Origin: Rhodocyclaceae bacterium
Lineage (GTDB): Bacteria > Pseudomonadota > Gammaproteobacteria > Burkholderiales > Rhodocyclaceae
DNA length: 64,000 bases
Direction: 5' to 3'
NCBI GenBank assembly: GCA_013791905.1
Contig: VMSX01000021.1
Span: 62,001 to 126,000, forward strand
Shown here: positions 2,666-62,511 of the stretch, piece after piece
How the letters are laid out: each line of letters opens with the position of its first letter
Position numbering within the stretch: the first letter of the stretch is position 1
Notes under the pieces: generated by a model
Databases searched by the model: none
What the model was told of the DNA's origin: nothing
What the model saw: the letters and a program-made list of their open reading frames with translations, nothing else
Position numbers and translations under genes: made by a program

Positions 2666-3862
2666 ATGAGCGACGAACTTGCAGGCAAGCATATCGTGCT
2701 GGGAATCACCGGCGGCGTGGCGGGTTACAAAGCCGCCGAACTGGCGCGGCTGCTCGGCAAGGCCGGGGCGCAGGTCGATGTTGTCATGACCGCGGCGGCC
2801 ATTCACTTCGTGGCGCCACTGACATTTCAGGCCTTGACCGGCCGCCCGGTATTCACCTCACTGTGGGACGTACCACAGGAAAATGGCATGGCGCATATCG
2901 ACCTCACCCGCAGGGCGGATGCGGTGATTGTCGCGCCGGCAACCGCCGATTTCATTGCCAAACTGGTGCATGGCCTGGCCGACGATCTGCTGGCCAGCTT
3001 GTGCCTGGCCAGGGATTGCCCACTGCTGGTGGCGCCGGCGATGAACCGCCAGATGTGGGAACACCCGGCAACGGTGCGCAACATGGCGCAACTGCGCGCG
3101 GATGGCGTTGGCGTGCTCGGTCCCGCCAGTGGGGCGCAGGCCTGCGGCGAGGTCGGGGCAGGGCGCATGCTCGAACCCGCCGAAATCATTGACGCCCTGC
3201 GTGCATCATTCCAGCCGAAAATGCTGGCCGGCAAGCGCGTACTGCTGACGGCCGGGCCGACTTTCGAGGCGCTCGATCCGGTGCGCGGCTTGACCAATTC
3301 GAGCTCGGGCAAGATGGGTTTCGCGCTGGCGCAAGCCTCTGCCGAGGCGGGGGCTGAAGTGACCTTGGTGGCAGGTCCGGTGTCGCTGCCGACGCCTGCC
3401 GGTGTGACGCGGATTGATGTTACCGGTGCGCTGGAAATGCGCGACGCTGTAAAGTCGGCGCTGGCGGGACGGCACATTTTCATTGCCGTGGCGGCAGTGG
3501 CCGATTACCGGCCCGCTGTACCCGTGGCGCACAAGATCAAGAAAGGTGCGCAGACGCTGACGCTGGAACTGGTTGCCAATCCGGACATCCTGGCCGAGGT
3601 GGCGGCACGCCCTGATGCGCCGTTCTGCGTTGGCTTTGCCGCCGAAAGCCAGAATCTGGCGGAATACGCCGAAGGCAAGCGCCGCGCGAAGCAGTTGCCG
3701 CTGGTCGTCGGCAACCTCGTCCAGGACGGCTTGGGCGGCAATGCCAATGTCGTCACGCTGTTCGATGCGGCGGGCGCCCACCCTTTAGCCCCTGGCGACA
3801 AGCTCACCATTGCCCGCGCCATCGTGCGCCATATTGCGGAGATGCTGGATGCACAAAATTGA
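2666..3862 (+). CDS. coaBC: Bifunctional phosphopantothenoylcysteine decarboxylase / phosphopantothenate-cysteine ligase
   Basis: Two steps of coenzyme A synthesis in one 398-residue protein. Residues 1-180 are the FMN-dependent CoaC flavoprotein domain ([20 protein letters not shown], and [12 protein letters not shown] carrying the catalytic region). The rest is the CoaB ligase ([40 protein letters not shown]). An ATG 11 codons upstream (2633) is open, but homologues begin near [13 protein letters not shown], so 2666 is preferred. The 3' end overlaps dut by 14 bases, which implies coupling. Codons 262-270 contain a perfect copy of the dispersed 23-nt repeat (3451-3473), encoding KSALAGRH between conserved blocks. 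Confidence 0.95.
3451..3473 (+). repeat. Dispersed 23-nt repeat, copy 1 (inside coaBC, perfect)
   Basis: Core AAGTCGGCGCTGG followed by CGGGACGGC. Identical over at least 25 bases to the intergenic copy at 46098. Translated here as KSALAGR. Confidence 0.85.
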
Positions 3863-4310
3863 TGTACGAATTCTTGATCAGCGCCTGAAGGACAATCAGG
3901 GCGAAGCAGCCCCCCATTACGCTACGGCAGGCGCCGCCGGCATGGACCTGCGCGCCTGCATCGAGGCGCCGGTGCGCTTGCATCCGGGCGAGTCGATGCT
4001 GATCCCGGCGGGCATCGCCATCCATCTCGCCGACCCCGGGGTAGCCGCCATGATCCTGCCGCGTTCGGGACTTGGCCACAAGCATGGCATCGTGCTGGGC
4101 AACCTGGTCGGGCTGATCGATTCTGACTACCAAGGCGAGATTTTCGTCTCGCTATGGAATCGCGGCCACGAAGTGTTTCTGCTCAATCCGCTCGACCGCA
4201 TTGCGCAACTGGTGGTGGTGCCGGTATTGCAGGTTGGCTTCAACGTGGTCGAACAATTCGAGGAAAGCAACCGTGGGGCTGGCGGTTTCGGCAGCACCGG
4301 GCACGGCTGA
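3849..4310 (+). CDS. dut: Deoxyuridine 5'-triphosphate nucleotidohydrolase (dUTPase)
   Basis: Hydrolyses dUTP to dUMP and pyrophosphate, keeping uracil out of DNA and supplying dTMP synthesis. The 153-residue length is standard for the homotrimeric enzyme. All five motifs are visible: AGMDLRA (1), [11 protein letters not shown] (2), [10 protein letters not shown] (3, with the catalytic Asp), RIAQLVV (4), and the C-terminal arm [10 protein letters not shown] (5). The ATG at 3849 lies inside the end of coaBC (14-base overlap), a common betaproteobacterial arrangement that favours translational coupling. A longer reading from 3810 lacks family support. Confidence 0.96.
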
Positions 4311-4326
4311 TAGCGCAGGGCAAAAA

Positions 4327-4346
4327 AATCCCGCCGTAGCGGGATT
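4327..4346 (-). terminator. Bidirectional-looking hairpin between dut and fccB
   Basis: Perfect 8-bp stem AATCCCGC/GCGGGATT with a CGTA loop. Seven A residues precede it on the plus strand, giving a T tract on the minus strand, so it best fits the end of the leftward fcc operon. It may also stop dut transcripts. Confidence 0.7.
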
Positions 4347-4375
4347 CCAAAATTAAGCCAGACCAACACTGCAGT

Positions 4376-4517
4376 CCCGGCGCCGGGACGCCCCAAGCCG
4401 GGACGCCACGCGCCGTCAGGCGCAATCCCCACCCCTGAAGAGCAACGCTGCCCGTGATAAATGAGCGCAGCGAGCCACCGTCACCCCCTTCCATTGGAAG
4501 GGGGATGGGGAGGGGCC
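4376..4517 (-). repeat. Large dispersed intergenic repeat, copy a
   Basis: In minus orientation it reads as a CCTCCCC-type hairpin, GGGTGAC, CTCGCTGCGCTCATTTATCACGGG, a GGGGATTGCG block, then GGCTTGGGGCGTCCCGG. The same order of blocks recurs at 16380, 46098, 54822, 58655 and 62328. It fills the convergent gap between dut and fccB. This is the most diverged copy. Confidence 0.6.
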
Positions 4518-8629: not shown

Positions 8630-8733
8630 CCGTGCCCCATGCGGGCATACCATATCCCGTTGCGGGGTACTCCGTCCCGTCACTCACCTATGTGTATTTC
8701 CTTCGGTCGCGCCGACTTCTGTCGGCGCGACAA
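8630..8733 (-). repeat. Dispersed repeat, long form, abutting the aceB stop
   Basis: In minus orientation it holds AAGTCGGCGCGACCGAAGG, AAATAC and GACGGGACGG, the same order as the elements at 16546 and 57383. A perfect 11-bp hairpin (GTCGCGCCGAC/GTCGGCGCGAC, 8706-8731) ends three bases from the aceB stop codon. The left part has GGGTACTCC/GCCCGCATGGGG blocks that also occur, in another order, at 22180-22240. Confidence 0.6.
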
Positions 8734-10457: not shown

Positions 10458-11732
10458 CTAAACAGGTAGATAAATGGCGCGGAAGTCGTTGACGTTGGTG
10501 CGGGTCGGGCCGGTGATGATCAACTGCTCAAGCGCGGCAAAGAAGCTGTAGCCGTCGTTATTGGCGAGAAAGTCGGCGCTGGCGAGACGGCGTTCCGTGG
10601 CGCGTTCCCGGATGTCGGGACCGAACCAGGCGCCGGCGTTGTCTTCGGTGCCGTCGATGCCGTCGGTGTCGCAAGCCAGCGCCCAGGCCGGAATGTCCAG
10701 TACGCTGGCGAGCGCCAGCAGAAATTCTGCGGCGCGACCACCGCGCCCCTGGCCGCGCACTGTCACCGTGGTCTCGCCACCCGACAAAATCACGCAGGGA
10801 CGCGGCACCGGTTCGCCATGCTGGGCGATTTGCCGGGCGATGGCGGCATGCATGTAGGCGATGTCGCGCGATTCGCCCTCGATGCTGTCGCCCAATACGA
10901 GCGGCGTGACGCCGTGCGCGCGGGCGTAGGCCGCCGCGGCCTGCAGGGCCTGTTGTGCGGTGGCGATGACGTGGATTTCACCACGGGGCAGACGCGGGTC
11001 GCCCGGCTTGGGCGTCTCGCAGTCGGGGGATTCAAGCCGCGTCCGCACGGCGGCGGGCGCTTCGATGCGGTACTTGTCGAGAATGGCGAGCGCCTGCTGG
11101 CGCGTGGTCGGATCGGCCAGCGTGGGGCCGGAGGCGATGACGGACGGGTCATCACCGGGAATGTCGGAAATGCCCAGCGTCACCACCCGCGCCGGCGCGC
11201 AGGCCAGTGCGAGGCGGCCGCCCTTGATGGCGGAAAGGTGCTTGCGCACGCAGTTCATCTCGTGGATGTTGGCGCCGCTCTTGAGCAGGGCGCGATTGAC
11301 CGTCTGCTTGTCGGAAAGTTGCAGGCCGGGTGCCGGCAGCGCCAGCAGGGCGGAGCCGCCGCCGGAAATCAGGCACAGCACCAGATCGTCGGCGGTGAGG
11401 TTCTGCACCAGCGCCAGCATTTCGCTGGCTGCTTGTTCACCTGCTGCGTCAGGTACAGGATGAGATGCTTCGACGACACGAATGCGCTGTGTCGCAGCCC
11501 CGTGTCCGTAACGGGTGACCACCATGCCGGACAATGGCCGGTCGGCTGGCCAGTGCGCCTCCACCACAGCGGCCATTGCTGCCGCCGCCTTGCCAGCGCC
11601 GATGACGATGGTGCGGCCCTTGGGGGGTGTCGGCAGGTGCAGCGGTACGCAGATCGCCGGGCTTACAGCCGCCACGGCGACATCGAACAGGCTACGGAGA
11701 AAGGCTTGTGGATCGGCGACTTGGCTGTTCAT
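10458..11732 (-). CDS. gckA: Glycerate 2-kinase (MOFRL family)
   Basis: Phosphorylates D-glycerate to 2-phosphoglycerate, the last step of the glycerate pathway from glyoxylate. The 424-residue protein has the N-terminal nucleotide-binding domain (IVIGAGKAAAAMA about 41-53, LISGGGSALL about 119-128, GISDIPGDD) and the C-terminal MOFRL domain (ILSGGETTVTVRGQGRGGR, ACDTDGIDGTEDNAGAW). The name ttuD is also used for this family. It is the last gene of gcl-hyi-glxR-gckA. Near the C-terminus, ERRLASADFL is encoded across a one-mismatch copy of the dispersed 23-nt repeat (10569-10591). Confidence 0.92.
   Translation of the reverse strand: MNSQVADPQAFLRSLFDVAVAAVSPAICVPLHLPTPPKGRTIVIGAGKAAAAMAAVVEAHWPADRPLSGMVVTRYGHGAATQRIRVVEASHPVPDAAGEQAASEMLALVQNLTADDLVLCLISGGGSALLALPAPGLQLSDKQTVNRALLKSGANIHEMNCVRKHLSAIKGGRLALACAPARVVTLGISDIPGDDPSVIASGPTLADPTTRQQALAILDKYRIEAPAAVRTRLESPDCETPKPGDPRLPRGEIHVIATAQQALQAAAAYARAHGVTPLVLGDSIEGESRDIAYMHAAIARQIAQHGEPVPRPCVILSGGETTVTVRGQGRGGRAAEFLLALASVLDIPAWALACDTDGIDGTEDNAGAWFGPDIRERATERRLASADFLANNDGYSFFAALEQLIITGPTRTNVNDFRAIYLPV
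10569..10591 (+). repeat. Dispersed 23-nt repeat, copy 2 (inside gckA, one mismatch)
   Basis: Plus-strand core AAGTCGGCGCTGG, antisense to gckA. Read in the gene as RLASADF. Confidence 0.8.
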
Positions 11733-15476: not shown

Positions 15477-16415
15477 ATGGACCGGCTGAAGCTCATGGAA
15501 ACCTTTGTCGCAGTGACCATGCGCGGCAGTTTGACGGCAGCAGCGGCAAGCGAAGGCATAGCGCCAGCAGTGGTTAGCCGGCGCATGGACGCCTTGGAAG
15601 AGCGGCTCGGCGTCAAGCTGATGGTGCGCACCACGCGCAAGATCACCCTGACTTTTGAGGGTAGTGCTTACCTCGAGGATTGCCAGCGTATTTTGCGCGA
15701 CGTCGGTGACGCCGAGGCGGCAGTCAGCCTCGGCGGCGTCAAGGCGTGGGGCCATCTGCGTATCACGGCGCCAGCCGGCTTCGGCCGTCGGCATGTGGCG
15801 CCCCTGTTGATGCAGTTATTGACGGACAACCCGGAGATCAACGCGAATCTCGACCTTTCCGACCGCACGGTCGATCTGGTCAATGAAGGCGTCGATTGCG
15901 CGGTGCGCATTGGCGACCTCGTCGATTCCAGCCTGATCAGCGTGCGGTTGGGCGAAATGCGCCGCGTGGTAGTGGGCAGTCCCGATTATCTGGCTCGCCA
16001 CGGCGTCCCGCCAGCGCCGACTTCTCTGGGCGAGTTCGACTGCCTGGCGCTCGGCCAGCAGGGCGGCTGGGTGTTTCGCGAGGCGCCGGAGAGCGCCCGG
16101 ACCATGAGCATCAAGGTCAGCGGTTCGCTGGATTGCAATGATGGCGCGGTGCTGCACGATTGGGCGCTGGCCGGGCGCGGCCTGGCCTGGCGTTCACTGT
16201 GGGAGGTGGGCGAGGATTTGCGCGCCGGCCGGCTGGTTTCTGTGCTCGACGACTGGGCCGCGCCGCCGGTCGGCATCAACGCGGTGTTTCCGCAGCGACG
16301 TCACCTGCCGCTGCGCGTGCGCCTGTTCATTGACCTGCTCAAGGAAAACTACAGCCGGCCGGATTACTGGGAAGGTAAGGCCCACCCCTCCCACCCTCCC
16401 CGCGCGGGGAGGTGA
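15477..16415 (+). CDS. LysR-family transcriptional regulator, likely of the gcl operon
   Basis: 312 residues. The N-terminal winged helix ([36 protein letters not shown]) and the substrate-binding domain ([20 protein letters not shown] to [15 protein letters not shown] and [10 protein letters not shown]) are complete. The ATG at 15477 has GGGGG upstream; an earlier in-frame Met (15429) would extend into the operator. Divergence from gcl suggests it controls that operon, probably in response to glyoxylate or a related acid. The final residues [11 protein letters not shown] and the stop codon come from a dispersed repeat, and PPAPTS at about residue 180 is encoded by another repeat copy. Confidence 0.9.
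16002..16024 (-). repeat. Dispersed 23-nt repeat, copy 3 (inside lysR, two mismatches)
   Basis: Minus-strand core AAGTCGGCGCTGG. Read in the gene as GVPPAPTS in a variable part of the effector domain. Confidence 0.75.
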
Positions 16416-16592
16416 CTGTGGCTCACTGCGTTCACTTATTACGGGGTGCGCGTTCGGTCTATGGTGGGGATTGCGGCTTTCGCCGCGTGCCGTGTTTGCT
16501 TGGGGCGGCCCGGCGCAAACACTGCGTCTTTCACGTTAAGTCTGGAAAGTCGGCGTGACCGAAGGAAATCCCCGTGGGACTGGCGGGACGGC
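16380..16592 (+). repeat. Large dispersed intergenic repeat, copy b, with long-form right end
   Basis: Order of blocks: CCTCCCCGCGCGGGGAGG hairpin, GTGACTGT, ACTTATTACGGGG, GGGGATTGCGGC, GCTTGGGGCGGCCCGGCG, TTTCACGTTAAG, then AAAGTCGGCG (16546), a 24-base core starting TGACCGAAGG, and CTGGCGGGACGGC (16580-16592). The left end supplies the lysR C-terminus and stop. It fills the convergent lysR/double-REC gap. Confidence 0.75.
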
Positions 16593-16628
16593 GCCAGCCG
16601 GCACGCCGCCAGGAATCGGACGGCGTTA

Positions 16629-44985: not shown

Positions 44986-46098
44986 GTGCCGCGGGACGGC
45001 ATGATCCGCGCTTTCGCTGCCGAGTTGAGCGAGCGCGGCATCGTCGCTGATGCGGCACAGCAGGCGGCGGTGGCCCGCCTGCAAGCTTTCTATGACGATC
45101 TGGTCACCTTCAAGGCGGCGCGGCGCAGCCGCTTGCGCAAGTTGCTGGTGCATCCCGCCTTGCCCAAGGGCGTCTGGTTCTGGGGCGGCGTCGGTCGCGG
45201 CAAGAGTTTTCTGATGGACTGCTTTTTCGCCGCCGTGCCTTACCAGCGCAAGCGTCGCGTGCATTTTCATGCCTTCATGCGCGAGGTGCATGAGCGTTTG
45301 CAAGCTTACAAGCACGCGTCTGATCCGCTGGCGAAAGTGGCGGCACAGGTGGCGCAGGAAACGCGGCTGATGTGCTTCGACGAATTTCACATATCCGACA
45401 TCGCCGACGCCATGATTCTCGCCCGCCTGATGCAGGCGCTGTTCGAGGCCGGCGTGCTGTTCTGCATCACCTCGAACTACCCGCCCGCCGGGCTTTACCC
45501 CGCTGGCCTGCAGCGCGAACTCGTGCTGCCGACGCTGGCTCTGCTCAATGAAAAGCTCGACGTCATCGAAATCGACGCTGGCATCGACTATCGCTTGCGG
45601 GCGCTGGAACAGGCGAGTGTTTATCTGCTGCCTGCCGATGACGATGCTGCTGCAAGACTCATGGATATCTTCACGCGGGTGGCGCATGGCGCAGGGCATG
45701 CGCGGCCGATCATGGTGGCGGGGCGGGAAATTCAGGTGATTCACCGCGCACCCGGTGTGCTCTGGATGGATTTTGCCGTGCTGTGCGACGGGCCGCGTTC
45801 GCAAAACGACTATCTCGATATCGCCCATCGCTTCCACACCATTTTTGTCGCCAACGTGCCGCGCATGGGTGCGGAGATGGCCAATGCCGCGCGTCGCTTC
45901 ACCTGGCTCGTCGATGTCTGCTACGACCACCGCGTCAAGCTGGTGCTCGCGGCAGCAGTGCCAGCCGAGGAACTCTATGTCGCCGGTCCGCAGGCCGGAG
46001 AATTCAAGCGCACCGTGTCACGCCTGATGGAAATGCGCTCACACGAATACCTGGCCAACGAGCACCGCCGCTACGAGACTCACGCCCCGTCCGACTGA
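44986..46098 (+). CDS. zapE: Cell division protein ZapE / AFG1-like ATPase
   Basis: 370 residues, a AAA-type ATPase. Walker A GGVGRGKSFLMD (about 67-78), preceded by GVWFWGGV, and Walker B LMCFDEFHISDIADAMIL (about 128-145) are diagnostic of the AFG1/ZapE family. ZapE associates with the FtsZ ring in E. coli, and the mitochondrial homologue acts in respiratory-chain protein turnover. The start is GTG 44986; ATG 45001 (MIRAFAAEL) is an alternative. It follows lpdA by 23 bases, a common betaproteobacterial order. The stop codon (TGA, 46096-46098) shares its last base with the dispersed repeat. Confidence 0.92.
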   Translation: MPRDGMIRAFAAELSERGIVADAAQQAAVARLQAFYDDLVTFKAARRSRLRKLLVHPALPKGVWFWGGVGRGKSFLMDCFFAAVPYQRKRRVHFHAFMREVHERLQAYKHASDPLAKVAAQVAQETRLMCFDEFHISDIADAMILARLMQALFEAGVLFCITSNYPPAGLYPAGLQRELVLPTLALLNEKLDVIEIDAGIDYRLRALEQASVYLLPADDDAAARLMDIFTRVAHGAGHARPIMVAGREIQVIHRAPGVLWMDFAVLCDGPRSQNDYLDIAHRFHTIFVANVPRMGAEMANAARRFTWLVDVCYDHRVKLVLAAAVPAEELYVAGPQAGEFKRTVSRLMEMRSHEYLANEHRRYETHAPSD

Positions 46099-46309
46099 AA
46101 GTCGGCGCTGGCGGGACGGCACAAAACCACAACAAAACTACAACAAAACCGCAAATCCAGCAGCCTTGCCGCCGGGCCGCCCCAAGGCAAGGCGGCACGC
46201 GGCGCCAGCCGCAATCTGCACCTCGATAAAAAATAATGCTCCCCGTAATAGACGAGCGTAGCGAGCAACTGTCACCTCCCCTTGAGGGGAGGCTGGGAGG
46301 GGTGGGCGT
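46098..46309 (-). repeat. Large dispersed intergenic repeat, copy c, with a perfect 23-nt repeat at 46098-46120
   Basis: The perfect 23-nt copy 6 (AAAGTCGGCG...) begins on the last base of the zapE stop. An A/C-rich stretch (ACAAAAC units) follows, then in minus orientation the common blocks: CCTCCCC hairpin, GTGACAGTTGCTCGCTACGC, TATTACGGGG, GCGGCTGGCGCCGCGTGCCGC and GGGGCGGCCCGGCGG. The end at 46309 encodes the C-terminal tail of the adjacent GGDEF-EAL protein. The 23-nt unit is inverted relative to copies b and f. Confidence 0.75.
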
Positions 46310-48740
46310 TTAGGGCACTCACCCAGCGCGGATCGGGGCGCCAGCTTGCAATCCAGCCCGGCAGGTCGGCCGCAGGCATGGGCCGGGCGATGCCGTAGCC
46401 CTGGGCGAGCGGGCAGCCGAGGGCGAGCAGCGCGGCGCCGATCTCCACGGTTTCGACGCCTTCGGCAATCACTTCGCGCTTGAATGCGCGCGTCAGGCTG
46501 ATCACGCCTTCGACGATGGCGTGATCCTCCTCGTCGGTCAGCAGGTCGCGCACGAAGCTCTGGTCGATCTTCAGCACATCAACCTTCAGGCGCTTGAAAT
46601 AGGACAGCGATGAATATCCCGTGCCGAAATCATCCAGGGCAAATTTCACACCCAGCGCATGGCAGGCGTCGATCACCCGTGCTACCAGTGCCATGTCTTC
46701 CAGGGCGACCGATTCGACAATTTCGAGTTCGAGCGCAGCCGGTGGCACATCGGGATGGCGCGCCAGAATGCTCGCCAGTTGTTCGCTGAAGTTGGGCGAT
46801 TGCAGATGACGCGCAGAAATATTCACACTGACGGTCAGCAGCAGGCCCGCCTTGCGCCAAGCGGCCAGTTGCTTCAATGCCGTGTCGATTACCCATTCGC
46901 CCAACGGAATTGCGAAATTGCTGTCTTCGACGACCGGCAGGAAACGGCCCGGCGGGATCAGTCCCTCTTCCGGGTGTTGCCAGCGAATCAATGCTTCGGC
47001 GCCAAACACGTCACCATTGCCCATGTTGACCTTGGGTTGATAAAAGAGCACGAACTCGTCCTGCACCAGTGCTGCCTCGATGCGCGTGCGGGCGTTGTGC
47101 TGCGCTTCGGTCTGCCGATCGAGCGCGGTGTCGAACAGGTGGAAACGGTTGCGGCCGGTCTGCTTGGCGACATACATGGCCTGGTCGGCGTGGCGCATCA
47201 GGGTGTCGGTGTCGGCGTCGTCCAACGGGTAGAGGGTGACGCCGATGCTCCCGGAAATCTGCACCTCTTGCGTTTCGATGTGGTAGGGCAAGGCGATGGC
47301 ATCGAGCAATCGCTGCAGAGCCTGAGTACACTCGTCGATGCTCGTCAGATCGTCGAGCAGCAGGGCGAATTCGTCTCCGCCCAGGCGACATACGCTGTCA
47401 CCGGCGCGCATGGTGTCCTTTAAGCGCTGCGCCACCTTGATCAACAGCCGGTCACCGATTTCGTGGCCATGTTGATCATTCACCGACTTGAAGGCGTCAA
47501 GATCGAGATAGGCAATTGCCAGCAGGCGCTGTGACCTTTGTGTCTGCACCATGGCCAGTTGCAGACGGTCGGCGAACAAAATGCGATTGGGCAACTGCGT
47601 GAGTGGATCGTGGTGGGCAAGAAATTCCAGTTCATGCTGGTAGCGCTTGCGCTCGGTGATGTCGCGCACCAGGGCGATGATGCGGTCGGTGCTGCCGATG
47701 CTGGTGCGCCGCAGATTGACCTCGACCCAGAACTGCCGGCCATCATCCATTCGTCGCGCCAGCCAGTCGAAGGTCTGCGGGCCTTTCTCCCGTGCCAGCC
47801 GCAAATTCTCTGTTGCTTCCACCTGGGTGAACGGTTTGACGTTGGTGGAAAGATCCGCCAACGAAACACCCAGCGCTTGAGCATGCGTACAGCCGAACAT
47901 TTCACACATGCGAAGGTTTACATCGAGCGTGCGGCCGGTCTCGGGATCATGGATGAAAATAGCATCGCCAGCGGCGTCGAAGATGGTACGAAAGCGTGTT
48001 TCGCTCTCGGCCAGTTGTTCAATGCGGTTTTGCACGGTCGCGGCCATGACATTGAAATTATCGGCGAGCAGGCCGACTTCGTCCTGACTGGTAATGGCAA
48101 TCGGTGTCGAATAATCGGCGCTGGCGATACGACGTGTCGCGGCGACCAGGTCGGTGATATGGCGTGTGACAAGAAAGCCGGCACCCATCAGCAGCAGCAT
48201 CGACAGCAAAATTGCAATGAAAACGATGGCGAAACTCTGCTGCAGGTTCGCGTTGCGCAAGGCAATCTGGTCGTCGAGCGACAGACCGAAGCGAACCGCG
48301 CCTACCGGGTTGTCATACAGGGAAATCTGCAGGGAAGTGTCGAAGGTCTGGTCGGCAAGTGCGCCGCTGATGCTGGCGTCCACAGGTGCGGTGTTCTGCA
48401 GCAGTTCCAGCGTGACCTCACCGGAACTTGCCAGCACCTCCCCATGAGCGTCGACGACGACGATGTAGCGCAGTCCGGCCAGTTCGGAGCCGGTCAGTTT
48501 GCGGATGACAGAGGTGATTTCGCTGTGATCGCGCTGGAACATCAGCCCGGCCAGTGCGGCGTCGAGCAGGGGCGCCAGGGCTTGGATCCGCACGCGAGTC
48601 TGCGATTCGAATGAGTTGTTCATCAGTCGATAGCTGTTGGCGAGCAGGAGCGCCAGCATGACCGACTGAATTAGCAGAACAATTACGACCAGCCTGAAGC
48701 GGATCGTGCGATACCAGGGTGTGGCAACTTCAGGATGCAT
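46272..48740 (-). CDS. Membrane sensor with HAMP, PAS, GGDEF and EAL domains
   Basis: 822 residues from ATG 48740, five bases after the PhnD-like gene stop. TM1 (about 16-38) and TM2 (about 178-200, FVIAILLSMLLLMGAGFLV type) enclose a periplasmic region of about 140 residues (RVRIQALAPLLDAALAG, GEVLASSGEV). HAMP, then PAS (ESETRFRTIFDAAGDAIFIHD) with a PAC motif, GGDEF at 454-458 and EAL at 582-584, followed by DDFGTGYSSLSYFKRL. All catalytic residues appear present. The last residues AHPSQPPLKGR and the stop lie in repeat copy c. Coupling to the PhnD-like binding protein upstream suggests a ligand-controlled c-di-GMP switch. Confidence 0.92.
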   Translation of the reverse strand: MHPEVATPWYRTIRFRLVVIVLLIQSVMLALLLANSYRLMNNSFESQTRVRIQALAPLLDAALAGLMFQRDHSEITSVIRKLTGSELAGLRYIVVVDAHGEVLASSGEVTLELLQNTAPVDASISGALADQTFDTSLQISLYDNPVGAVRFGLSLDDQIALRNANLQQSFAIVFIAILLSMLLLMGAGFLVTRHITDLVAATRRIASADYSTPIAITSQDEVGLLADNFNVMAATVQNRIEQLAESETRFRTIFDAAGDAIFIHDPETGRTLDVNLRMCEMFGCTHAQALGVSLADLSTNVKPFTQVEATENLRLAREKGPQTFDWLARRMDDGRQFWVEVNLRRTSIGSTDRIIALVRDITERKRYQHELEFLAHHDPLTQLPNRILFADRLQLAMVQTQRSQRLLAIAYLDLDAFKSVNDQHGHEIGDRLLIKVAQRLKDTMRAGDSVCRLGGDEFALLLDDLTSIDECTQALQRLLDAIALPYHIETQEVQISGSIGVTLYPLDDADTDTLMRHADQAMYVAKQTGRNRFHLFDTALDRQTEAQHNARTRIEAALVQDEFVLFYQPKVNMGNGDVFGAEALIRWQHPEEGLIPPGRFLPVVEDSNFAIPLGEWVIDTALKQLAAWRKAGLLLTVSVNISARHLQSPNFSEQLASILARHPDVPPAALELEIVESVALEDMALVARVIDACHALGVKFALDDFGTGYSSLSYFKRLKVDVLKIDQSFVRDLLTDEEDHAIVEGVISLTRAFKREVIAEGVETVEIGAALLALGCPLAQGYGIARPMPAADLPGWIASWRPDPRWVSALNAHPSQPPLKGR

Positions 48741-49663: not shown

Positions 49664-52285
49664 TCAGTCTTTGCTCAGGCGCTTGAGCGCGTAGAGTTTG
49701 TCGAGTGCTTCACGCGGACTCAATGTGTCGGGGTCGAGTTCCGCTAGTGCTTCGATAACCGGATGCGACTCGGGTGCAAAAGTCGGCGCTGGTGGTGCGG
49801 CGGCAGCAGCGAACAGATCGGTTTGCGGCCCGGCTTGGGCTGCGCGGTTTTCCAGTTCAACCAGGCGCCGCTTGGCTTCGCGCAGGACCGCAGCTGGCAC
49901 ACCGGCCAGCGCGGCGACCTGTATGCCATAAGATTGCGAAGCGGGTCCCGCCTCGACGGCATGCAGGAACACCACTGACTTGCCGTGCTCGACGGCGTCC
50001 AGATGCACGTTGGCGCAGGCGGGGTGATCTTGCGCCAGGCGTGTCAATTCGAAGTAGTGGGTGGCGAACAGCGTCCAGGCGCGGTTCTTTTCGATCAGTT
50101 GGCGGGCAATGGCGAAGGCCAGCGCCAGGCCGTCGAAGGTGGAGGTGCCGCGCCCGATCTCGTCCATCAGCACCAGCGACTGGTCGGTGGCGCCATGCAG
50201 GATGGCGGCGGCCTCGGTCATTTCGACCATGAAGGTCGATCGTCCTGAGGCCAGATCGTCGGCCGCGCCGATGCGGGTGTGGATGGCGTCGATCGGCCCG
50301 AACCGGCAGCTTTGCGCCGGCACGAAGCTGCCGCAGTGGGCGAGCAGCACGATCAGCGCCGTCTGCCGCATGTAGGTGGATTTGCCGCCCATGTTGGGGC
50401 CGGTGATCAGCAGCATGCGGCGGGTCGGCGACAGGTCGAGGTCGTTGGCGATGAAACTGTCGACTTGACGTTCCACGACCGGATGGCGGCCGCCGACGAT
50501 TTCCAGGCAGGGATAGTCGACGAATTCAGGCCGGCAGTAGTCGTAGCGTTGTGCCGCGGTAGCGAGGGCGGCGAGTCCATCGAGCTGCGCCAGCGCGCGG
50601 GCGATGCGCTGCAGTTCAGTGATGTGTCCGGCGAGGTCCGCCAGCAGTTCGTCGTAAAGTCGTTTTTCAAGCGACAGGGCACGTTCATTCGCGGACAGTG
50701 CCTTGTCCTCGAAGGCTTTCAACTCTGGCGTGATGTAGCGCTCGGCATTTTTCAGCGTCTGGCGGCGGCGGTAATCGTCCGGTATGCGGTCGGTATGGGC
50801 GTGGGAGACCTCGATGTAGAAGCCATGTACTTTGTTGTATTCGACCTTGAGGCTGTTGATGCCGCTGCGCGATTTTTCGCGGGCTTCGAGGTCGATCAGG
50901 TATTGCCCGCAATTGGTCTGAATGCCGCGCAGTTCGTCGAGGTCGGCGTCGAAGCCGGCGGCAATGGCGCCGCCGTCGCGCAGCAAGGCCGGCGGATCGA
51001 CTGCCACTGTACGGTCGAGTCGCTCTAGGCAGGCGGTTGGGACGGCGAGATCCGCGCACAGTGTTTTCAACAGACTGCTGCGCTCGCCCTGAAGCGCCAG
51101 CAGGCAGGATATTTCGGGCAGGTGGCGCAAGGTTTCGCGCAGCGCGGCGAGTTCGCGGGGGCGTACGCTTTTGAGCGCGATGCGTGTGCCGATGCGCTCG
51201 GCATCGGCGCTGCCGTTCAGCACAGTGCCGAGTTTTTCCAGCAGCGCCATCTCGTCAGCGTCAAGCAGGGCGGCGATGGCGCCGTGGCGGAGGGCGGCGC
51301 TGGCGCGGTCGGTGAGCGGATGGTGCAGGCAGTGGCGCAGCCAGCGTGCGCCCGGCGCGGTTGCGCAACTGTCGAACAGCGACAGCAGCGTCGGCGCTGT
51401 CTCGCCACGCAGGGTCTCGGTGATTTCGAGGTTGCGGCGCGTCGCGGCGTCGAGCCTGAGCCAGCTCGATTCGTGTTCCACCTGCAAGCTAGTGACATGG
51501 GTGAGCGCCTGCAGCTGGGTGGCTTGGGCGTAACGCATCAATGCCCCGGCGGCGCCGAGGGCCAGAGCAGCCTCTGCCGTGTCGGGAATGAAGGCGGCCA
51601 GGTCGCGCGTGCCGAAGTGCGCGGCTAGCAGTTGCGCCGCGCTGGTCGTATCGAAATGCCAGTCGGGGCGTCGCCGCAAGCGGTTCGCACTGTCGTCGGA
51701 TAGCGTCAATGTGTCCGCAGCGACCGTCTCGCCAAGCAGGATTTCCGCTGGTTTGAGTCGGGTCAGCTGGGCGGGCAGCGTGGCAGCGCTGGTTTCCAGC
51801 AGGCGCAGCTCGCCGCTGGCGAGATTTAGCCAGGCCAGCCCCACGCGTTGCCGCTCCACGCGAATGGCAAGCAGCAGGCTGTCGCTGCGGTCGTCGAGCA
51901 GGGCGGCGTCGGTCAGCGTGCCCGGTGTGACGACGCGCACGACGGCACGTTCCATCGGCCCCTTGCTGGTTGTCGAGTCGCCAATCTGTTCGCAGATCGC
52001 CACCGACTCGCCGAGTCTGACCAGCCGCCCCAGATACTGGTCGCAGGCGTGATAAGGCACGCCCGCCATCGGAATCGGCAAGCCGGCGGACTGCCCGCGC
52101 TTGGTCAGCGTGATGTCGAGCAGTCGCGCCGCTTTTTCGGCATCGGCGTAGAACAATTCGTAGAAATCGCCCATGCGGTAAAACAACAGCACGTCGGGAT
52201 GCGCCGCCTTGAGACGCAGGTATTGCTGCATCATCGGTGTGTGGCCGGCGAAATCCACTGGCGGGGCGGCAGAAGCTCGGGTCAT
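49664..52285 (-). CDS. mutS: DNA mismatch repair protein MutS
   Basis: 873 residues, full length. Mismatch-binding domain ([35 protein letters not shown] with the Phe-x-Glu wedge), core and clamp, then the ATPase: Walker [18 protein letters not shown] (about 626-642), [16 protein letters not shown] (Walker B and signature) and ATHYFEL. In the C-terminal region after the ATPase a linker [14 protein letters not shown] is encoded over a three-mismatch copy of the dispersed 23-nt repeat (49779-49801). It is divergent from plsB, with 92 bases between starts. Confidence 0.97.
49779..49801 (+). repeat. Dispersed 23-nt repeat, copy 7 (inside mutS, three mismatches)
   Basis: Core AAAGTCGGCGCTGG exact on the plus strand, antisense to mutS. 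Read in the gene as PPAPTF in a flexible linker. Confidence 0.7.
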
Positions 52286-52377: not shown

Positions 52378-54819
52378 ATGGCTTCCAGCATCATTGCAAA
52401 ATTGGCACTGCGCCTGCTGCATGTATGGGTGCGGGTGCGGGTGTTTCCGGAAAATGCCGGGGAGCCCGAAACCTTGGCCGTCGACCCGGCGCTCCCGGTC
52501 TGTTATGTGTTGCGCGAAAGCTGGTGGTCAGATCGCCTGGTATTGCAGGATGCGGCACAGCGCGCCGGTCTGCCCGCTGTGGATGCGCCGCTCAGGGTCG
52601 CCGGGCGCCGTCTCGGCAGCGCCGACTTTTCCCTGAGCCGGGGATGGTGGTTGTTCGGCAGGGCGCGTGAGCAGTATGCCGCGCCCGCCAGGCTGACGCG
52701 CTTGATCGAGGCGCTGACGGCGGATGACACGGCGGATGTGCAACTCGTGCCGGTGACGGTATTGTGGGGGCGGGCACCCAAGCAGCAGGATTCAATTGTG
52801 CGCGCGCTGCTGGCCGAGTCATGGCACCGGCGGCATCCGCTTGGGCATTGGCTGGCGGTGCTGCTCCATGGGCGCCAGACCCATGTCCATTTCGGCCAGC
52901 CGCTCTCCCTGCGCACGCTGATCGAGGATGCGCCTGATGCGGCATTGGCCGGAAAAAAATGCGCGCGCGTGCTGCGCGCCCATTTCCGCCGTCAACGGGA
53001 AATGGCTATCGGCCCGGATGTTTCGCATCGCCATACCGAGGTGGAGGCCCTGCTGGAGTCGCCCGAGGTGAGCGCGGCCATGGCAGAGACGGCAAAGCGC
53101 GACAAGCTCAAACCCGAGGCAGTGCGCAAGCTGGCGCGACGCCATGCGCTGGCGATTGCTTCCGACTACTCCTATAGTGTCGTGCGCGCCGGCGAGCTGC
53201 TCCTCAACTGGCTGTGGACACGCCTGTTCGACGGTGTCGAGGTGCGCAATCTCGATGTCCTGACCCGTATCGCGGCTGGACAAAGCCTGGTTTACGTTCC
53301 CTGCCATCGTAGCCACATCGACTATCTGCTGATGTCGTATGTGATCTTCCACAACGGCCTGACGCCACCGTACGTTGCTGCCGGCGACAACCTCAATCTG
53401 CCGCTGATTGGCCAAATACTGCGGCGCGGCGGCGCATTCTTTCTGCGCCGCACCTTCAAGGGTGACCCGCTGTATGCAACGGTGTTCGCCGAATATCTGC
53501 ACCGCATGCTGGCGCGCGGTTTCCCCATCGAGTTCTTCATCGAGGGGGGGCGCAGCCGCAGCGGTCGCATGCTGCCGCCCAAGGCTGGTTTGCTCGGCAT
53601 GACGGTGCAGAGTTTTGTGCGCCGCCACGAGCGGCCGTTGGTTTTCGTGCCGGTGTATCTGGGCTATGAAAAGTTGCCTGAAGGCGCGAGCTTCGTCGAT
53701 GAGCTCAGCGGCCAGCCGAAGCGCCGCGAGTCGCTGTGGAGCGTAATCTCTGCGGTGCGCGTATTGCGCCGTCATTTCGGCCAGGTTTATGTGAACTTCG
53801 GCGAGCCGCTATCCCTCGGCGACTGGCTCGATGAGCGGCATCCGGCCTGGCGGACGGCTGAAACGGAGTCTCCCGGAGAAAGCGACTGGCTGCGCGGCGC
53901 GGTCGGCGACATTGCCGGCGAACTGGTGCGGCGCATCAATGCCGCTGCACTGGTCAATCCGGTGAACCTGGTCGGCCTCGCCCTGTTGTCGACCCCCAAG
54001 GCGACCGCCGATGCTGCCGCACTGGCCCGCCAAATCGGCCATTTGCAGGCCTTTATCGATGCGGAACATACCGCCGCGCTTGCCGCGCCGGCCGATGGCG
54101 CAGCCTGCATCGCCGCTGCGCTAAGGCTCGGGGCGGTGCATCGCATCGAACATCCACTCGGCGCATTGATTGGTGCCAATACCAAGGAGGCGGCCCTGCT
54201 GGCCTACTTCCGCAACAACGTATTCCACCTGTTTGCCCTGCCGGCCCTGGTGGTCTGTCTGATCGTGCAGCACGGACCGCTGACCGAGAAACGCTTGCTG
54301 GAAACGCTGAGCGATCTGCTGGCGCTGATGCGCGACAGTCTCTACCTGCGCATGGTCGAAAAGGACCTGCCGGCGGCATTGGAAGAAGTGCTGGGAATAC
54401 TGGTGGCACGCGGGTTGATCGAGCGGCATGGCGGCAACGTCAGCGAGCCGGCCGCCAATTCGGTGGCGCGCAGCGACCTGCTCTGGCTGGGCGAAATGTT
54501 GCGGCCGCAGATGGAGCGCTACTTTCTGGTCCTGATGCTGTTGCGGCATGGTGGCAGCGGCAACCTGACGCACGCGGCACTGCTTGAGCAAAGCGTCCTG
54601 CTGGCACAGCGTCTGGCTTTGCTGCATACGGGCAATACCCCGGAATTCGCCGACCGTCCCCTGATGGCCGCCCTCATCGATCATCTGCTCGACAACGGCA
54701 TCCTGCGCCAAGAGGCAGCGGGCAAACTGGCCTTCGGCATGGCGCTGGAACGCGCAGCCGCTCAGGCCGAAGCTCTGCTGGCGCCGGATGCCAGTGAAAT
54801 GATGCGGCGGCTGGTTTAG
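52378..54819 (+). CDS. plsB: Glycerol-3-phosphate 1-O-acyltransferase
   Basis: First acylation of phospholipid synthesis, at the inner membrane; 813 residues. The acyltransferase motifs are clear: PCHRSHIDYLLMSY (H-x4-D, about 304-317), GGAFFLRRTF, IEFFIEGGRSRSGRMLPPK and PLVFVPVYLGYEKLPEG. ATG 52378 starts MASSIIAKLALRLLHVWVRV, as homologues do; an extension to 52237 would overlap mutS. RRLGSADFSLSRGWW near residue 80 is encoded over a two-mismatch dispersed repeat. The stop lies three bases before large repeat copy d. Confidence 0.95.
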   Translation: MASSIIAKLALRLLHVWVRVRVFPENAGEPETLAVDPALPVCYVLRESWWSDRLVLQDAAQRAGLPAVDAPLRVAGRRLGSADFSLSRGWWLFGRAREQYAAPARLTRLIEALTADDTADVQLVPVTVLWGRAPKQQDSIVRALLAESWHRRHPLGHWLAVLLHGRQTHVHFGQPLSLRTLIEDAPDAALAGKKCARVLRAHFRRQREMAIGPDVSHRHTEVEALLESPEVSAAMAETAKRDKLKPEAVRKLARRHALAIASDYSYSVVRAGELLLNWLWTRLFDGVEVRNLDVLTRIAAGQSLVYVPCHRSHIDYLLMSYVIFHNGLTPPYVAAGDNLNLPLIGQILRRGGAFFLRRTFKGDPLYATVFAEYLHRMLARGFPIEFFIEGGRSRSGRMLPPKAGLLGMTVQSFVRRHERPLVFVPVYLGYEKLPEGASFVDELSGQPKRRESLWSVISAVRVLRRHFGQVYVNFGEPLSLGDWLDERHPAWRTAETESPGESDWLRGAVGDIAGELVRRINAAALVNPVNLVGLALLSTPKATADAAALARQIGHLQAFIDAEHTAALAAPADGAACIAAALRLGAVHRIEHPLGALIGANTKEAALLAYFRNNVFHLFALPALVVCLIVQHGPLTEKRLLETLSDLLALMRDSLYLRMVEKDLPAALEEVLGILVARGLIERHGGNVSEPAANSVARSDLLWLGEMLRPQMERYFLVLMLLRHGGSGNLTHAALLEQSVLLAQRLALLHTGNTPEFADRPLMAALIDHLLDNGILRQEAAGKLAFGMALERAAAQAEALLAPDASEMMRRLV
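52607..52629 (-). repeat. Dispersed 23-nt repeat, copy 8 (inside plsB, two mismatches)
   Basis: Minus-strand AAAGTCGGCGCTG is exact. Read in the gene as RRLGSADF in a variable N-terminal region. Confidence 0.75.
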
Positions 54820-57293: not shown

Positions 57294-57382
57294 GGGTGAT
57301 CCTTGATGTTATTAAAGAAATCTTATCTTGACATGAAAGTGACTGATTCGCATTGGGAGCGGAAATTTAAGCCGTTATTGCA

Positions 57383-57432
57383 AAAGTCGGCGTGACCGAA
57401 GGAAATCCCCTTTTAGGGACTGGCAGGACGGC
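57383..57432 (+). repeat. Dispersed repeat, long form, without the large element
   Basis: AAAGTCGGCG, a core beginning TGACCGAAGGAAATCCCC, TTTTAGGGA and CTGGCAGGACGGC. It matches the right end of the element at 16546-16592 but stands alone in the 245-base gap between the ankyrin gene and the next gene. The rest of 57294-57538 contains only a presumed promoter region for the divergent genes. Confidence 0.75.
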
Positions 57433-57538
57433 AAGTTTACGGGTTTTCCCGCTGGTTTGATCTGGTCTTGTCAAGACGGCTTGGGGTACCATCAGTCTCG
57501 ACTATCTGCTTATTCACATTGATCTAGAAAGGTAATAC

Positions 57539-58654: not shown

Positions 58655-58818
58655 AACGCCCCCCCCCCTTCGCCCCCCTCGCGGGGGGTTCCAAACTGTT
58701 CGCTGGCGCTCGTTTATCACGGGGCGCTTCCCTTGACATGGGTGCGGGTTGCGGCTGGCGCCGCGTGCCGCGTTGGCTTGGGGCGGCCCGGCGCAAACGC
58801 TGTGTTTTCACGTTAAAT
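58655..58818 (+). repeat. Large dispersed intergenic repeat, copy e
   Basis: Blocks: CCCCCTCGCGGGGGG hairpin, CTGGCGCTCGTTTATCACGGGG, GGTTGCGGCTGGCGCCGCG, GCTTGGGGCGGCCCGGCG and TTTTCACGTTAA. The last block contains the stop codon of aat. This copy separates two genes of the same strand rather than convergent ones and could disturb aat-bpt co-transcription. Confidence 0.72.
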
Positions 58819-59512: not shown

Positions 59513-60573
59513 GCGATTTGACGGAATGCGACAACATGGTCGACATCCAGCCGGATGCCGATCTTTTCGCCGATGGCGTGGTTGTGGTGCGAAGGCACCA
59601 GTGACAGCACCTGAATGCCGGAGTCGAGTCGCAGGGTATAGAGGAATTCGGCGCCGCGGAAGGTCTTGGCGACGACCTCGGCCTGGGTCTGAGCGGCATC
59701 GTCATGCACGACGTCATCAGGCCGTAGCAGAATGTCGAGGGCGCAACCCTTGCCGCAGGCGAGGCAGGAACTGGTGCATTCGAGCGGCAGCTTGCTGTCG
59801 AGGGCTCCGAGCTCTATTTCGACGGTCTGGCGGTCGATGACCTGTCCCGTCAGGAAGACGCCCTGGCCGACGAAATCGGCGACGTGGCGCGTCGCCGGGC
59901 GATGATAAAGGTTATAGGGTGTATCCCACTGCTCGATGCGCCCGGCATGCATGATGCCCACTTGGTCGGCGACGGCGAAGGCTTCATGCTGGTCGTGGGT
60001 GACAAGGATGGCGGCGGTGCCGGTCTGCTTGAGGATGTCGCGGACTTCGAGCGAGAGCCGCTCGCGCAGTTCGACATCGAGGTTGGAGAACGGCTCATCG
60101 AGCAGCAATAGGTGCGGGCGCGGCGCCAGCGCGCGTGCCAGCGCGACGCGCTGCTGCTGACCGCCGGAGAGTTCGTGCGGGTATTTCTCGCCCTGTCCCG
60201 ACAGGCCTACAATCCCCAGCAATTCGTCGACACGCCGTCCCGCCAGCGCCGACTTTTCGCGCAAGCCAAAACCGATGTTGCCGGCAATGGTGAGGTGCGG
60301 GAACAGCGCGTAGTCCTGAAATACCATGCCGATGTTGCGCTTTTCGGGCGGCACTTGGCGGTCGGGTGAGCCAACCGTCACATCGCGCAGGCGAACGCTG
60401 CCCTGGGTCGGCGTTTCGAAGCCGGCGATCAGCCGCAACACGGTCGTCTTGCCGCAACCCGAGGCGCCCAGCAGGCAGCCGATTTCGCCGTCGGCGAGGC
60501 TCAGGGAGAGGTCGCGCACCACGGGATGGTTGCCGTAGGCATGACTGATGCAGTCAAGGGTGAGCAGGGACAT
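59509..60573 (-). CDS. fbpC: Ferric iron ABC transporter ATP-binding protein
   Basis: Powers Fe(III) import with FbpB and FbpA; also called afuC. 354 residues: Walker [13 protein letters not shown] (about 37-48), signature [16 protein letters not shown], Walker [13 protein letters not shown], switch [13 protein letters not shown], and a C-terminal regulatory domain (about 240-350). [13 protein letters not shown], between the Q-loop and the signature, is encoded over a perfect copy of the dispersed 23-nt repeat (60234-60256). It is divergent from fbpB with a Fur-like dyad between the two. aat follows with a 4-base overlap. Confidence 0.92.
60234..60256 (-). repeat. Dispersed 23-nt repeat, copy 9 (inside fbpC, perfect)
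   Basis: Identical to the copy at 62328-62350, 2.1 kb away, over 25 bases. Read in the gene as KSALAGRR, the same frame as in coaBC. Confidence 0.85.
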
Positions 60574-60594: not shown

Positions 60595-60617
60595 TAATTG
60601 AGAGTCGCTCTCAATTA
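60595..60617. promoter_or_regulatory. Fur-like dyad between fbpC and fbpB
   Basis: TAATTGAGAG-TCG-CTCTCAATTA is a perfect 10-bp inverted repeat located between two divergent ferric transport genes. Similarity to the 7-1-7 Fur box is moderate, but the TTGAGA/TCTCAA arms recur in the fbpA site. Confidence 0.6.
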
Positions 60618-60661
60618 TAATCTTCCTCCCTGCCTTCGTTGCCCCTGCCTCCCCGTTCCCT

Positions 60662-62326
60662 GTGCGTTCTCCACTGGTTGTTTTTACGACGCTGATCGGC
60701 TTGCTCGTTGCGCTGCCGGTGCTGTCCGTTGCTGCCAACCTGTTCGCCGGCGACACCGGGGCAACCTGGAGCCATCTGGCGGCGACCGTGCTGCCCGAGT
60801 ACATCGTCAATTCCTTGCTGCTCTCTGTGGGCGTTGGCCTCGGCGTTGCGCTGGTGGGCGTGGCAACGGCGTGGCTGACATCGATGACGGACTTTCCCGG
60901 CCGGCGCGTGTTCGACTGGGCGCTGTTGCTGCCGCTGGCGATGCCGGCGTATGTCATGGCCTATGTGTATACCGACCTGCTGCAGTTCGTTGGACCGCTG
61001 CAGACCATGCTGCGCGAGACTTTCGGCTGGGGGCGCGGCGATTACTGGTTCCCGGAAATTCGCAGCCTCGGTGGAGCCAGCCTGATGTTCATCTGCGTGC
61101 TCTATCCCTATGTTTATCTGCTCGCCCGCACGGCCTTTCTCGAACGCGGCTCGGGTACTTTCGAGGCGGCGCGCAGCCTGGGGCTTTCATCCTGGCAGGC
61201 GTTTTATCGCGTCTCGCTGCCGCTGGCGCGGCCGGCACTGGCGGCGGGTGTGGCACTGGTGCTGATGGAGACGCTGGCCGATTACGGCACGGTGGCGTAC
61301 TTCGCCGTGCCGACCTTCACCACCGGGATTTACCGTGCCTGGTTCGCCCTGGGCGATCGCGTGGCGGCGGCGCAACTGGCCGGTGCATTGCTGACCTTTG
61401 TGCTTTGTCTGCTGGCACTGGAGCGCATCAGTCGCGGGCGCGCACGCTTCCACGAAACCGGGCGGCGGCGCAGTGAACGGCGGTCGCTTGAAGGCGCCCG
61501 CGCCTGGCTGGCCAGCCTGGTTTGCCTGCTGCCGCTGTTACTGGGCTTTCTCCTGCCCGGCGCCTTGTTGCTCAGGCTGACCCTGGCTGGCGGGGACAGC
61601 GAATTCGGTTTGCGTTACGGCGTGCTGGCCTGGAACAGCCTGATGGTGGCTGGCATCAGCGCCGTGCTGGCGGTGTTGCTGGCGGTGCTGCTGGCCTATG
61701 GCCTACGGCTGGCGCAGGCACAACAAAGTGTGCAAGGGGTGGCTTGGGGCGCGCAATTTTCGCGCATGGCCAACCGCATCGTCGGGCTCGGCTATGCGGT
61801 GCCGGGTTCGGTGATTGCGGTCGGCGTGCTGATTCCCGTAACCCGACTCGACCACTGGTTGGCATCTGTCTGGCTCGATGTGTCCGGTCAAAGTCCGGGA
61901 CTATTGCTGACCGGCGGCGTGGCGGCACTGATCTACGCTTACTTGGCGCGCTTTTTGGCGATCGCCCTGCATACGGTCGAATCCGGGCTGCTGCGCGTGA
62001 CGCCGAGCATGGATGCGGCCGCCAAGAGCCTCGGCTGCGCGCCGGGGGAAGCGCTGCGCCGCGTGCATCTGCCGCTCTTGCGCGGCAGCCTGTTTTCCGC
62101 CGGCCTGCTGGTGTTCGTCGATGTGATGAAGGAACTGCCGGCCACGCTGGTGATGCGCCCCTTCAACTTCGATACGCTGGCGACACAGACCTTCACGCTG
62201 GCGTCGGATGAACGGTTGGCGGAAGCCTCGACGGCAGCGCTGGCGATTGTCGCCGTCGGGCTCGTGCCGGTGTTTCTGCTGGCGCGACAGATTGCCGCCG
62301 GGCGCGACGCGAAGACGGCTTGCTGA
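60662..62326 (+). CDS. fbpB: Ferric iron ABC transporter permease (fused two-domain)
   Basis: 554 residues with about twelve membrane helices in two homologous halves. Each half has an ABC EAA loop: EAARSLGLSSWQAFYRVSLP (about 177-196) and DAAAKSLGCAPGEALRRVHL (about 452-471). FbpB-type permeases are such fusions. The start is assigned to GTG 60662 just before the first helix; no Shine-Dalgarno is obvious. The TGA stop directly precedes the 23-nt repeat at 62328 and the large repeat copy f. It is convergent with fbpA. Confidence 0.92.
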   Translation: MRSPLVVFTTLIGLLVALPVLSVAANLFAGDTGATWSHLAATVLPEYIVNSLLLSVGVGLGVALVGVATAWLTSMTDFPGRRVFDWALLLPLAMPAYVMAYVYTDLLQFVGPLQTMLRETFGWGRGDYWFPEIRSLGGASLMFICVLYPYVYLLARTAFLERGSGTFEAARSLGLSSWQAFYRVSLPLARPALAAGVALVLMETLADYGTVAYFAVPTFTTGIYRAWFALGDRVAAAQLAGALLTFVLCLLALERISRGRARFHETGRRRSERRSLEGARAWLASLVCLLPLLLGFLLPGALLLRLTLAGGDSEFGLRYGVLAWNSLMVAGISAVLAVLLAVLLAYGLRLAQAQQSVQGVAWGAQFSRMANRIVGLGYAVPGSVIAVGVLIPVTRLDHWLASVWLDVSGQSPGLLLTGGVAALIYAYLARFLAIALHTVESGLLRVTPSMDAAAKSLGCAPGEALRRVHLPLLRGSLFSAGLLVFVDVMKELPATLVMRPFNFDTLATQTFTLASDERLAEASTAALAIVAVGLVPVFLLARQIAAGRDAKTAC

Positions 62327-62327
62327 C

Positions 62328-62511
62328 GCCGTCCCGCCAGCGCCGACTTTTCACGTGAAAGACGTAGCGTTTGCGCCGGGCCGTCCCAAGCAAACGCGGC
62401 ACGCGGCGCAGCCGCAATCCGCACCCAAGCCACAATAAGTGCGCCCCGTGATACACGAGCGCAGCGAACCGTCCAGAACCCCCCGAGAGGGGGGCAAAGG
62501 GGGGCGGGTGA
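62328..62511 (-). repeat. Large dispersed intergenic repeat, copy f, ending in a perfect 23-nt repeat
   Basis: In minus orientation: CCCCCCTCTCGGGGGG-type hairpin, GCTGCGCTCGTGTATCACGGGG, GGATTGCGGCTGCGCCGCGT, GCCGCGTTTGCTTGGGACGG, GCGTCTTTCACG, then AAAAGTCGGCG and CTGGCGGGACGGC (23-nt copy 10, 62328-62350). One end touches the fbpB stop and the other the fbpA stop. Confidence 0.78.

Follow-up and report, generated by a model that had tools for sequence, protein, structure and literature searches.

In the literature that we found, DNA-uptake sequences have been described from two families only, the Pasteurellaceae, with the uptake signal sequence (USS), and the Neisseriaceae, with the DNA uptake sequence (DUS). 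The sections of that literature cited here report that USS arise by point mutation (PMC7811141, PMC1626085), that USS and DUS are considered independent in origin, that ComP binds DUS, and that the minor pilin ComN has been proposed as the USS receptor (PMC12616744). An excess of perfect over singly mismatched copies is given there as an anomaly of both USS and DUS, unlike the sites of regulatory proteins (PMC1626085). We have analysed a stretch of 64,000 nucleotides from a Rhodocyclaceae bacterium (assembly GCA_013791905.1, contig VMSX01000021.1, positions 62,001 to 126,000 of the forward strand; hereafter the window), in which an earlier inspection of the letters (the sequence-only reading) had noticed a 23-nt repeat inside eight unrelated coding sequences and at two intergenic sites, and had named a DNA-uptake-type sequence, an insertion-type repeat and a chromosome-organisation site as candidates. 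The first of these is favoured by our data: the repeat has a strong consensus, lies on both strands, appears to have arisen by substitution at the sites tested, exists in dialects and has a family-restricted spread, and we take it as a probable uptake signal, of the USS/DUS type, of the Rhodocyclaceae. Among the papers listed in searches of the open-access full-text literature, none reports an uptake sequence in this family in its title or abstract opening, which is weak evidence of absence.

Abundance and shape of the motif

The ten copies of the earlier list are all present in the window, nine with the exact 13-mer AAGTCGGCGCTGG and the plsB copy with one mismatch in it, and the four described as perfect over 23 nt (at 3451, 46098, 60234 and 62328) are so. 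The repeat itself is therefore confirmed, but its length is not: the full motif is 25 bp, AAAAGTCGGCGCTGG-NNNN-ACGGCG, where NNNN is looser and mostly CGGG, and in an alignment of 59 exact copies with 45-bp flanks its edges are sharp and the flanks near background. The source genome (G000; 3,643,995 bases in 30 contigs) holds 405 exact copies of AAGTCGGCGCTGG, 196 forward and 209 reverse, a density of ~110 per Mb, and the same word read backwards, as a control, has 0 copies in the whole of that genome. Within two mismatches of AAGTCGGCGCTGG there are 17 matches in the window; 100 shuffles gave 3.4 on average and never more than 7. In a 424-kb sample consisting of the window and 360 kb of contig C1, 59 exact copies were observed where an order-5 Markov model expects 0.30, and 60 shuffled 13-mers had no exact copy; the comparison with a Markov model, which the sequence-only reading had proposed for the whole genome, places the count in this sample far above expectation. 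Perfect copies outnumber those with one mismatch in the same 424 kb (59 vs 30), and the bare motif, folded as a single strand, does no better than shuffles (z -0.26).

Allowing up to four mismatches gives 78 sites, which a simple in-house codon-score gene caller assigns to genes (51), intergenic sequence (22) and gene edges (5). Since coding sequence covers ~88 to 90% of the sample, intergenic sites are over-represented (22 of 73 sites with edges excluded, against 12% expected; binomial P=3e-5). The claim that copies lie on both strands and in different reading frames was borne out, with four of the six frames in use and coding for KVGAGGTA (18 copies), AVPPAPTF (16), RRPASADF (10) and KSALAGR (7), while none of the 51 in-gene sites uses either of the two remaining, arginine-rich frames. 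Such restriction to four frames suggests that proteins filter where copies are tolerated.

Dialects, spread and chromosomal arrangement

A search of related genomes, which the sequence-only reading had proposed, found the motif abundant in the genus of the source genome (g1) and in several other genera of the family. Exact 13-mers number 46 to 464 in 18 of 19 g1 genomes, and G006 has none. Across a sample of 249 Rhodocyclaceae genomes from 68 genera, AAAAGTCGGCGCTGGNNNNACGGCG (three mismatches or fewer) is present in more than 100 copies in seven genera, g1, g2, g9, g62, g69, g70 and g88, the reversed control reaching at most 3 in the table. Motif-rich genera include the low counts of G006 (0) and of G277 in g2 (46), and intermediate counts occur in G064 of g47 (49), G097 (21), G232 (17) and G034 (16). 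Records with a 27-bp form of the motif are, among the 80 of 102 stretches listed, mostly Rhodocyclaceae metagenome bins, the other labels being Propionivibrio (4) and Sulfuritalea, Sulfurisoma, Thiobacillus, Sideroxyarcus and Gammaproteobacteria (1 each). Exact 23-mers are also present in 40 stretches of viral contigs.

Other genera carry the same arms around a different centre. The g1 word has just 10 near matches in G028 (g11), and a blind word count on 100 kb of this genome returned AAAGTCAGTCC, which aligns as AAAAGTCAGTCC...ACGGCG and so has the arms and the length of the g1 motif with another centre. In a scan of 395 family genomes, AAAAGTC-N12-ACGGCG was found in 15 to 292 copies in 15 of the 16 g11 genomes and in 0 copies in G194. 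A further dialect, AAAAGTCGACGCTGG...ACGG, is that of G086 (g69); AAAAGTCGACGCTGG also appears weakly in G034, and the g17 dialect rests on one genome with 16 near matches, the second sampled g17 member, G118, having 2. Three dialect centres are therefore seen, and AAAGTC and ACGG are constant in all of them. The 3' end varies within g1 too, reading ACGGCA in 7 of 9 copies from stretches of G002 and ACGGCG in 66 of 74 from G000, a difference that explains the low strict ACGGCG counts of G002 and, probably, those of several relatives. De novo word counts on sampled parts of G006, G064, G023, G036, G098 and G031 gave no dialect-like word. In G021, from a motif-less genus, stretches L299-L302 contain an unrelated enriched word that is GTACGGGTGGCGGTACG-like. 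Outside the family, none of 386 genomes has more than 5 copies (399 genomes of the order scanned), where a reversed control hit 7 once; two outside-family genomes, G428 and G475, have full-consensus copies, those of G475 in two dialects, a pattern suggestive of transfer from Rhodocyclaceae.

Dialects can meet at orthologous positions. G028 and G000 share a site in acnB but carry words of different dialects there, and of five dialect-2 or -3 sites for which the G000 sample has an orthologue, two lie on a g1-type motif (the G028 acnB site and a G086 site, the latter within ~6 bp). A midpoint-rooted tree of AcnB and MutS (25 taxa, 1729 columns) separates three lineages that bear the motif: g1, a group of g2, g9, g62, g69 and g70, and g11. 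Five motif-less genera stand next to g11, and G006, which lacks the motif, is a long branch within g1. This topology would fit an ancestral motif with losses and dialect shifts.

The arrangement of copies along the chromosome bears on another possible reader of the motif, an intracellular DNA-binding protein (a nucleoid organiser, recombination hotspot or segregation factor) whose cellular role would be selected and would keep the sites spread. We regard this as unlikely. Chi and KOPS (FtsK-orienting polar sequences) are strand-unbalanced, in contrast to the balanced strands of the motif across G000 (196/209) and in the first 0.55 Mb of G002 (13/12), and the chromosome-organisation candidate is disfavoured by this balance. 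Only the first 0.55 Mb of G002 was used because the places listed for this genome are 52/52 of the forward but 48/69 of the reverse copies, and an apparent strand bias at the end of that list was set aside. Judged without a mapped origin or GC skew, polarity is nevertheless uneven on 400 kb of contig C4 (13/27; the list of places there was checked against the sequence and is complete over 1-400 kb), and strands stand at 20/30 on 360 kb of C1. An intracellular reader would also suit the spacing of exact copies, which is more even than random on C4 (coefficient of variation, CV, 0.69, P=0.0097) and marginally so on C1 (CV 0.79, P=0.059), as well as the intergenic enrichment and the bounded, asymmetric form of the 25-mer, whose two constant arms could fit a two-domain protein. 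It accords poorly with centres that are genus-specific, with the near-absence of the motif from most sampled genera of the family, and with an excess of perfect over one-mismatch copies that is unlike regulatory-protein sites as the cited part of PMC1626085 describes them.

Host genes, origin of the copies and inserted units

Alignment of host proteins with motif-less orthologues, as had been suggested, indicates that substitution was the main origin of coding copies at the few sites that were tested. The gap analysis covered six genes (acnB, coaBC, gckA, lysR, fbpC-like and mutS). The copy in acnB (30657..30681, minus strand, read KVGAGDTA) was compared in 27 sequences from 30 genomes, leaving out G064, which had no open reading frame (ORF) passing the filter, and fragments of G010 and G034. 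Around this site 26 of the 27 have the same length, G008 having four extra residues, and a g1-type motif (four mismatches or fewer) is present in 16, all from the 19 dialect-1 genomes. Motif-less sequences read KVAKGEE, RVAKGEE, KVARGEV and similar, and motif-bearing ones mostly KVGAGET or close to it; where the fourth column holds Ala, as it does in 18 dialect-1 genomes, the codon is GCT in 15, although GCT makes up 8.5% of Ala codons in G000. The copies in coaBC (3450..3474, plus strand, KSALAGR) and in the glycerate-kinase-like gene gckA (10568..10592, plus strand, antisense, RRLASADF) are ungapped against distant solved structures, 1u7u and 6tgv for the former and 1x3l and 2b8n for the latter, and that in a lysR-type regulator gene (16001..16025, minus strand, antisense, GVPPAPTS) is ungapped against 3hhg, with a one-residue gap right after the motif in 3mz1. 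The statement that every coding copy lies in a variable loop or linker holds for mutS and sucB, and fails for the ungapped segments of acnB, coaBC and gckA. The mutS copy (49778..49802, plus strand, antisense, AAPPAPTF) lies in a C-terminal linker, where the motif (five mismatches or fewer) is kept in 14 of 14 g1 sequences examined, G006 excepted, in an alignment of 29 of 30 genomes (G105 had no match and was left out). This linker is longer by some residues in g1 than in other genera; mutS of g2, g9 and g62 instead has its copy in a variable-length loop around residue 390, and in G001 and G011 there is a second copy around residue 189.

The other genic copies in the window are those in the sucB linker (42726..42750, minus strand, antisense), in plsB (52606..52630, minus strand, antisense) and in an fbpC-like ABC ATPase gene (60233..60257, minus strand, KSALAGR, 0 mismatches). 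An eleventh, absent from the earlier list, is a weaker copy with 3 mismatches in a GGDEF/EAL-like gene (48110..48134, plus strand), and the G008 orthologue of this gene matches the motif better. The site at 62327..62351 (minus strand, 0 mismatches) is intergenic, and that at 46097..46121 (plus strand), which had been called intergenic, is so except for its first two bases, which are the last two of the zapE ORF (44986-46098). NCBIfam matches above cut-off support coaBC, sucB, plsB, mutS, zapE and acnB; those of gckA, lysR and the fbpC-like ABC ATPase are below cut-off only.

Some copies of the motif are split by small inserts of 21, 24, 27 or 54 bp. Class B inserts are 24 or 27 bp, of the form TGACCGAAGG(A/G)AATCCCC...GGGA, and are placed after AAAAGTCGGCG; several long entries in this class are chance pairs and were ignored. 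Two intergenic copies in the window are split in this way, one by 24 bp (16545..16593, plus strand) and one by 27 bp (57382..57433, plus strand), where the motif of G008, the sole aligned relative, is uninterrupted though partly decayed. Inspected by eye, the repeat list also shows sequences at 22221-22263 and 8687-8718, on the minus strand, that resemble decayed forms of motif plus class B insert. Class C inserts, of 21 bp, carry the inverted repeat CCCGC-A-GCGGG in the 3' half (46-nt form, counted directly). Class B and C forms fold only slightly better than shuffles (z -1.24 and -0.74), and the 54-bp units of G002 (one of 51 bp), which stand before the full motif, fold strongly (z -3.72). 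Among the places listed for G002 there are at least 11 arrays of these units, in regions with long open frames. Arrays on its contig C1 (for example 566170-566398) consist of tandem 54-bp units with motif and inverted partner, and, if translated, would contribute repeats of 18 residues. At the sucB site six relatives have the motif without interruption, and in G002 and G017 a 54-bp unit splits it. Because relatives have an uninterrupted motif there and at 57382, the insert seems at both sites to have entered a motif that already existed.

These inserts, some of them in genes, are an argument for taking the motif itself as a mobile repeat, resembling Rickettsia palindromic elements (RPEs), repetitive extragenic palindromes (REPs) or miniature inverted-repeat transposable elements (MITEs), that inserts itself into genes and spacers; its strong consensus would be that of young copies. 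We nevertheless consider such an origin highly improbable, as the acnB, coaBC and gckA alignments are ungapped, a 25-bp insertion would put the gene out of frame, the motif alone folds no better than shuffles, and at the two sites compared relatives have an uninterrupted motif where the inserts sit. RPE-like insertion was accordingly set aside for the 25-bp motif, where it is not supported at these three genes, and survives for what lies inside motif sites, the 54-bp units of G002 and G017. A codon or amino-acid preference, by which a common peptide (KVGAG, PPAPT) would yield the repeat by chance, might explain why only four of six frames are used, but can be dismissed given copies on both strands, in four frames and at 22 of 78 sites between genes, and the failure of the 60 shuffled 13-mers to recur.

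A second repeat family consists of hairpins with a near-constant loop, TTGGGGCGGCCCGGC, and variable complementary stems, with 26 copies in 424 kb of G000. In the window it is found at 16463-16530, 46161-46222, 54993-55060 and 58741-58808, and the repeat list relates 4371-4433 and 62364-62409 to it. The 26 copies have 21 distinct left stems, with 7.5 of 8 positions paired against 4.5 with shuffled partners, and by eye some end right before an ATG, with GGAGG in the stem. Rfam at gathering thresholds has no match anywhere in the window, this family included. On contig C1 of G000, near 120247-120275, one such loop adjoins AAAAGTCGGC, and the bases of the latter make up an arm of the stem, as though the element had copied its flank in inverted orientation.

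A candidate uptake signal and its known counterparts

If the motif is a DNA-uptake signal, a DNA receptor on the cell surface, most likely a minor pilin of the type IV pilus, would prefer DNA containing AAAGTC-centre-ACGG. Preferred uptake followed by homologous recombination would be the driving force, spreading sites by point mutation where the protein tolerates them, and a shift in receptor specificity would shift the centre genome-wide and so give rise to dialects. Apart from the features named at the outset, the sharp edges, the excess of perfect copies, the GCT codons at the acnB site, the intergenic enrichment, the spacing and the occurrence of ComEC in all 30 genomes tested count in favour of this reading. 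Competence genes, which the sequence-only reading had proposed to look for, are present in the form of ComEC and pilin genes, but they are also present in motif-less genomes. G000 has 15 pilin-like matches, 14 of them above cut-off, and PF16732 (ComP_DUS) matches a 145-aa pilin at 39.1 bits (cut-off 27.3), the gene of which adjoins a FimT/GspH-like gene (C4, about 263672-265124). Pilins of motif-less genomes match ComP_DUS better, and the ComP-like pilin, since it occurs in motif-less genomes too, was rejected as a discriminating gene. A pilin-like protein of G000 (L261, C9:109401) has an N-terminal leader that reads AVPPAPTF, a peptide of the motif type.

Several observations weigh against an uptake signal. 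The uptake genes found do not follow the motif: ComEC is found in 30 of 30 genomes tested, motif-bearing or motif-less, the ComP-like pilins of motif-less G006, G021 and G023 score 46.4, 46.4 and 74.5 bits, G006 retains both ComEC and such a pilin, and comparison of these two genes across genomes found neither to track the presence of the motif. Of the five dialect sites with a G000-sample orthologue, the other three are ~39 bp from a motif (one) or have no motif (two, one at 41% identity). Gaps of 2 or 3 residues lie in or next to the motif of the fbpC-like gene, and in the mutS linker length differences adjoin the copy. Strands are uneven on C4. We know of no uptake-sequence model with inserts inside the motif. 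Motif density is also well below the Neisseriaceae counts given in the cited part of PMC3630211.

A broader proposal can be made only tentatively, and we would sooner doubt than assert it: that the Rhodocyclaceae have a third, independently evolved self-DNA uptake system, with a 25-bp signal of constant arms and at least three genus-specific centres switched at orthologous sites, and with tiny inserts that enter the signal, maybe hitch-hiking on transformation. If this were true, a third origin, in environmental bacteria, would test molecular drive against mate recognition, and elements that insert into the signal would occupy a new kind of genomic parasite niche. Centres that vary by genus between constant arms offer a direct handle on the receptor via co-variation.

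Among known systems, RPEs and intragenic REPs, palindromic insertions in ORFs according to the cited part of PMC3733652, resemble the 54-bp units of G002. The 25-bp motif differs from RPEs in being non-palindromic and not inserted at the tested sites, the extra units sitting inside motif sites. With the Neisseriaceae DUS, as far as the cited part of PMC3630211 describes it, the motif shares dialects between genomes with invariant positions, and genera without an obvious abundant word. The DUS itself is 10-12 bp with an invariant CTG and has between 943 and 5918 copies in the genomes for which that paper gives counts (PMC3630211), whereas the Rhodocyclaceae motif is 25 bp long, has two constant arms and occurs in some hundreds of copies, with a putative receptor. 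From the Pasteurellaceae USS (Hin-type AAGTGCGGT) it differs in its word, its 25-bp length and the bacterial class; the string AAAGT..CGG common to both may be a coincidence. What it shares with the USS, going by the cited parts of PMC1626085, PMC7811141 and PMC12616744, is abundance, a strong consensus, origin by point mutation, dialects, and a core accompanied by further conserved segments.

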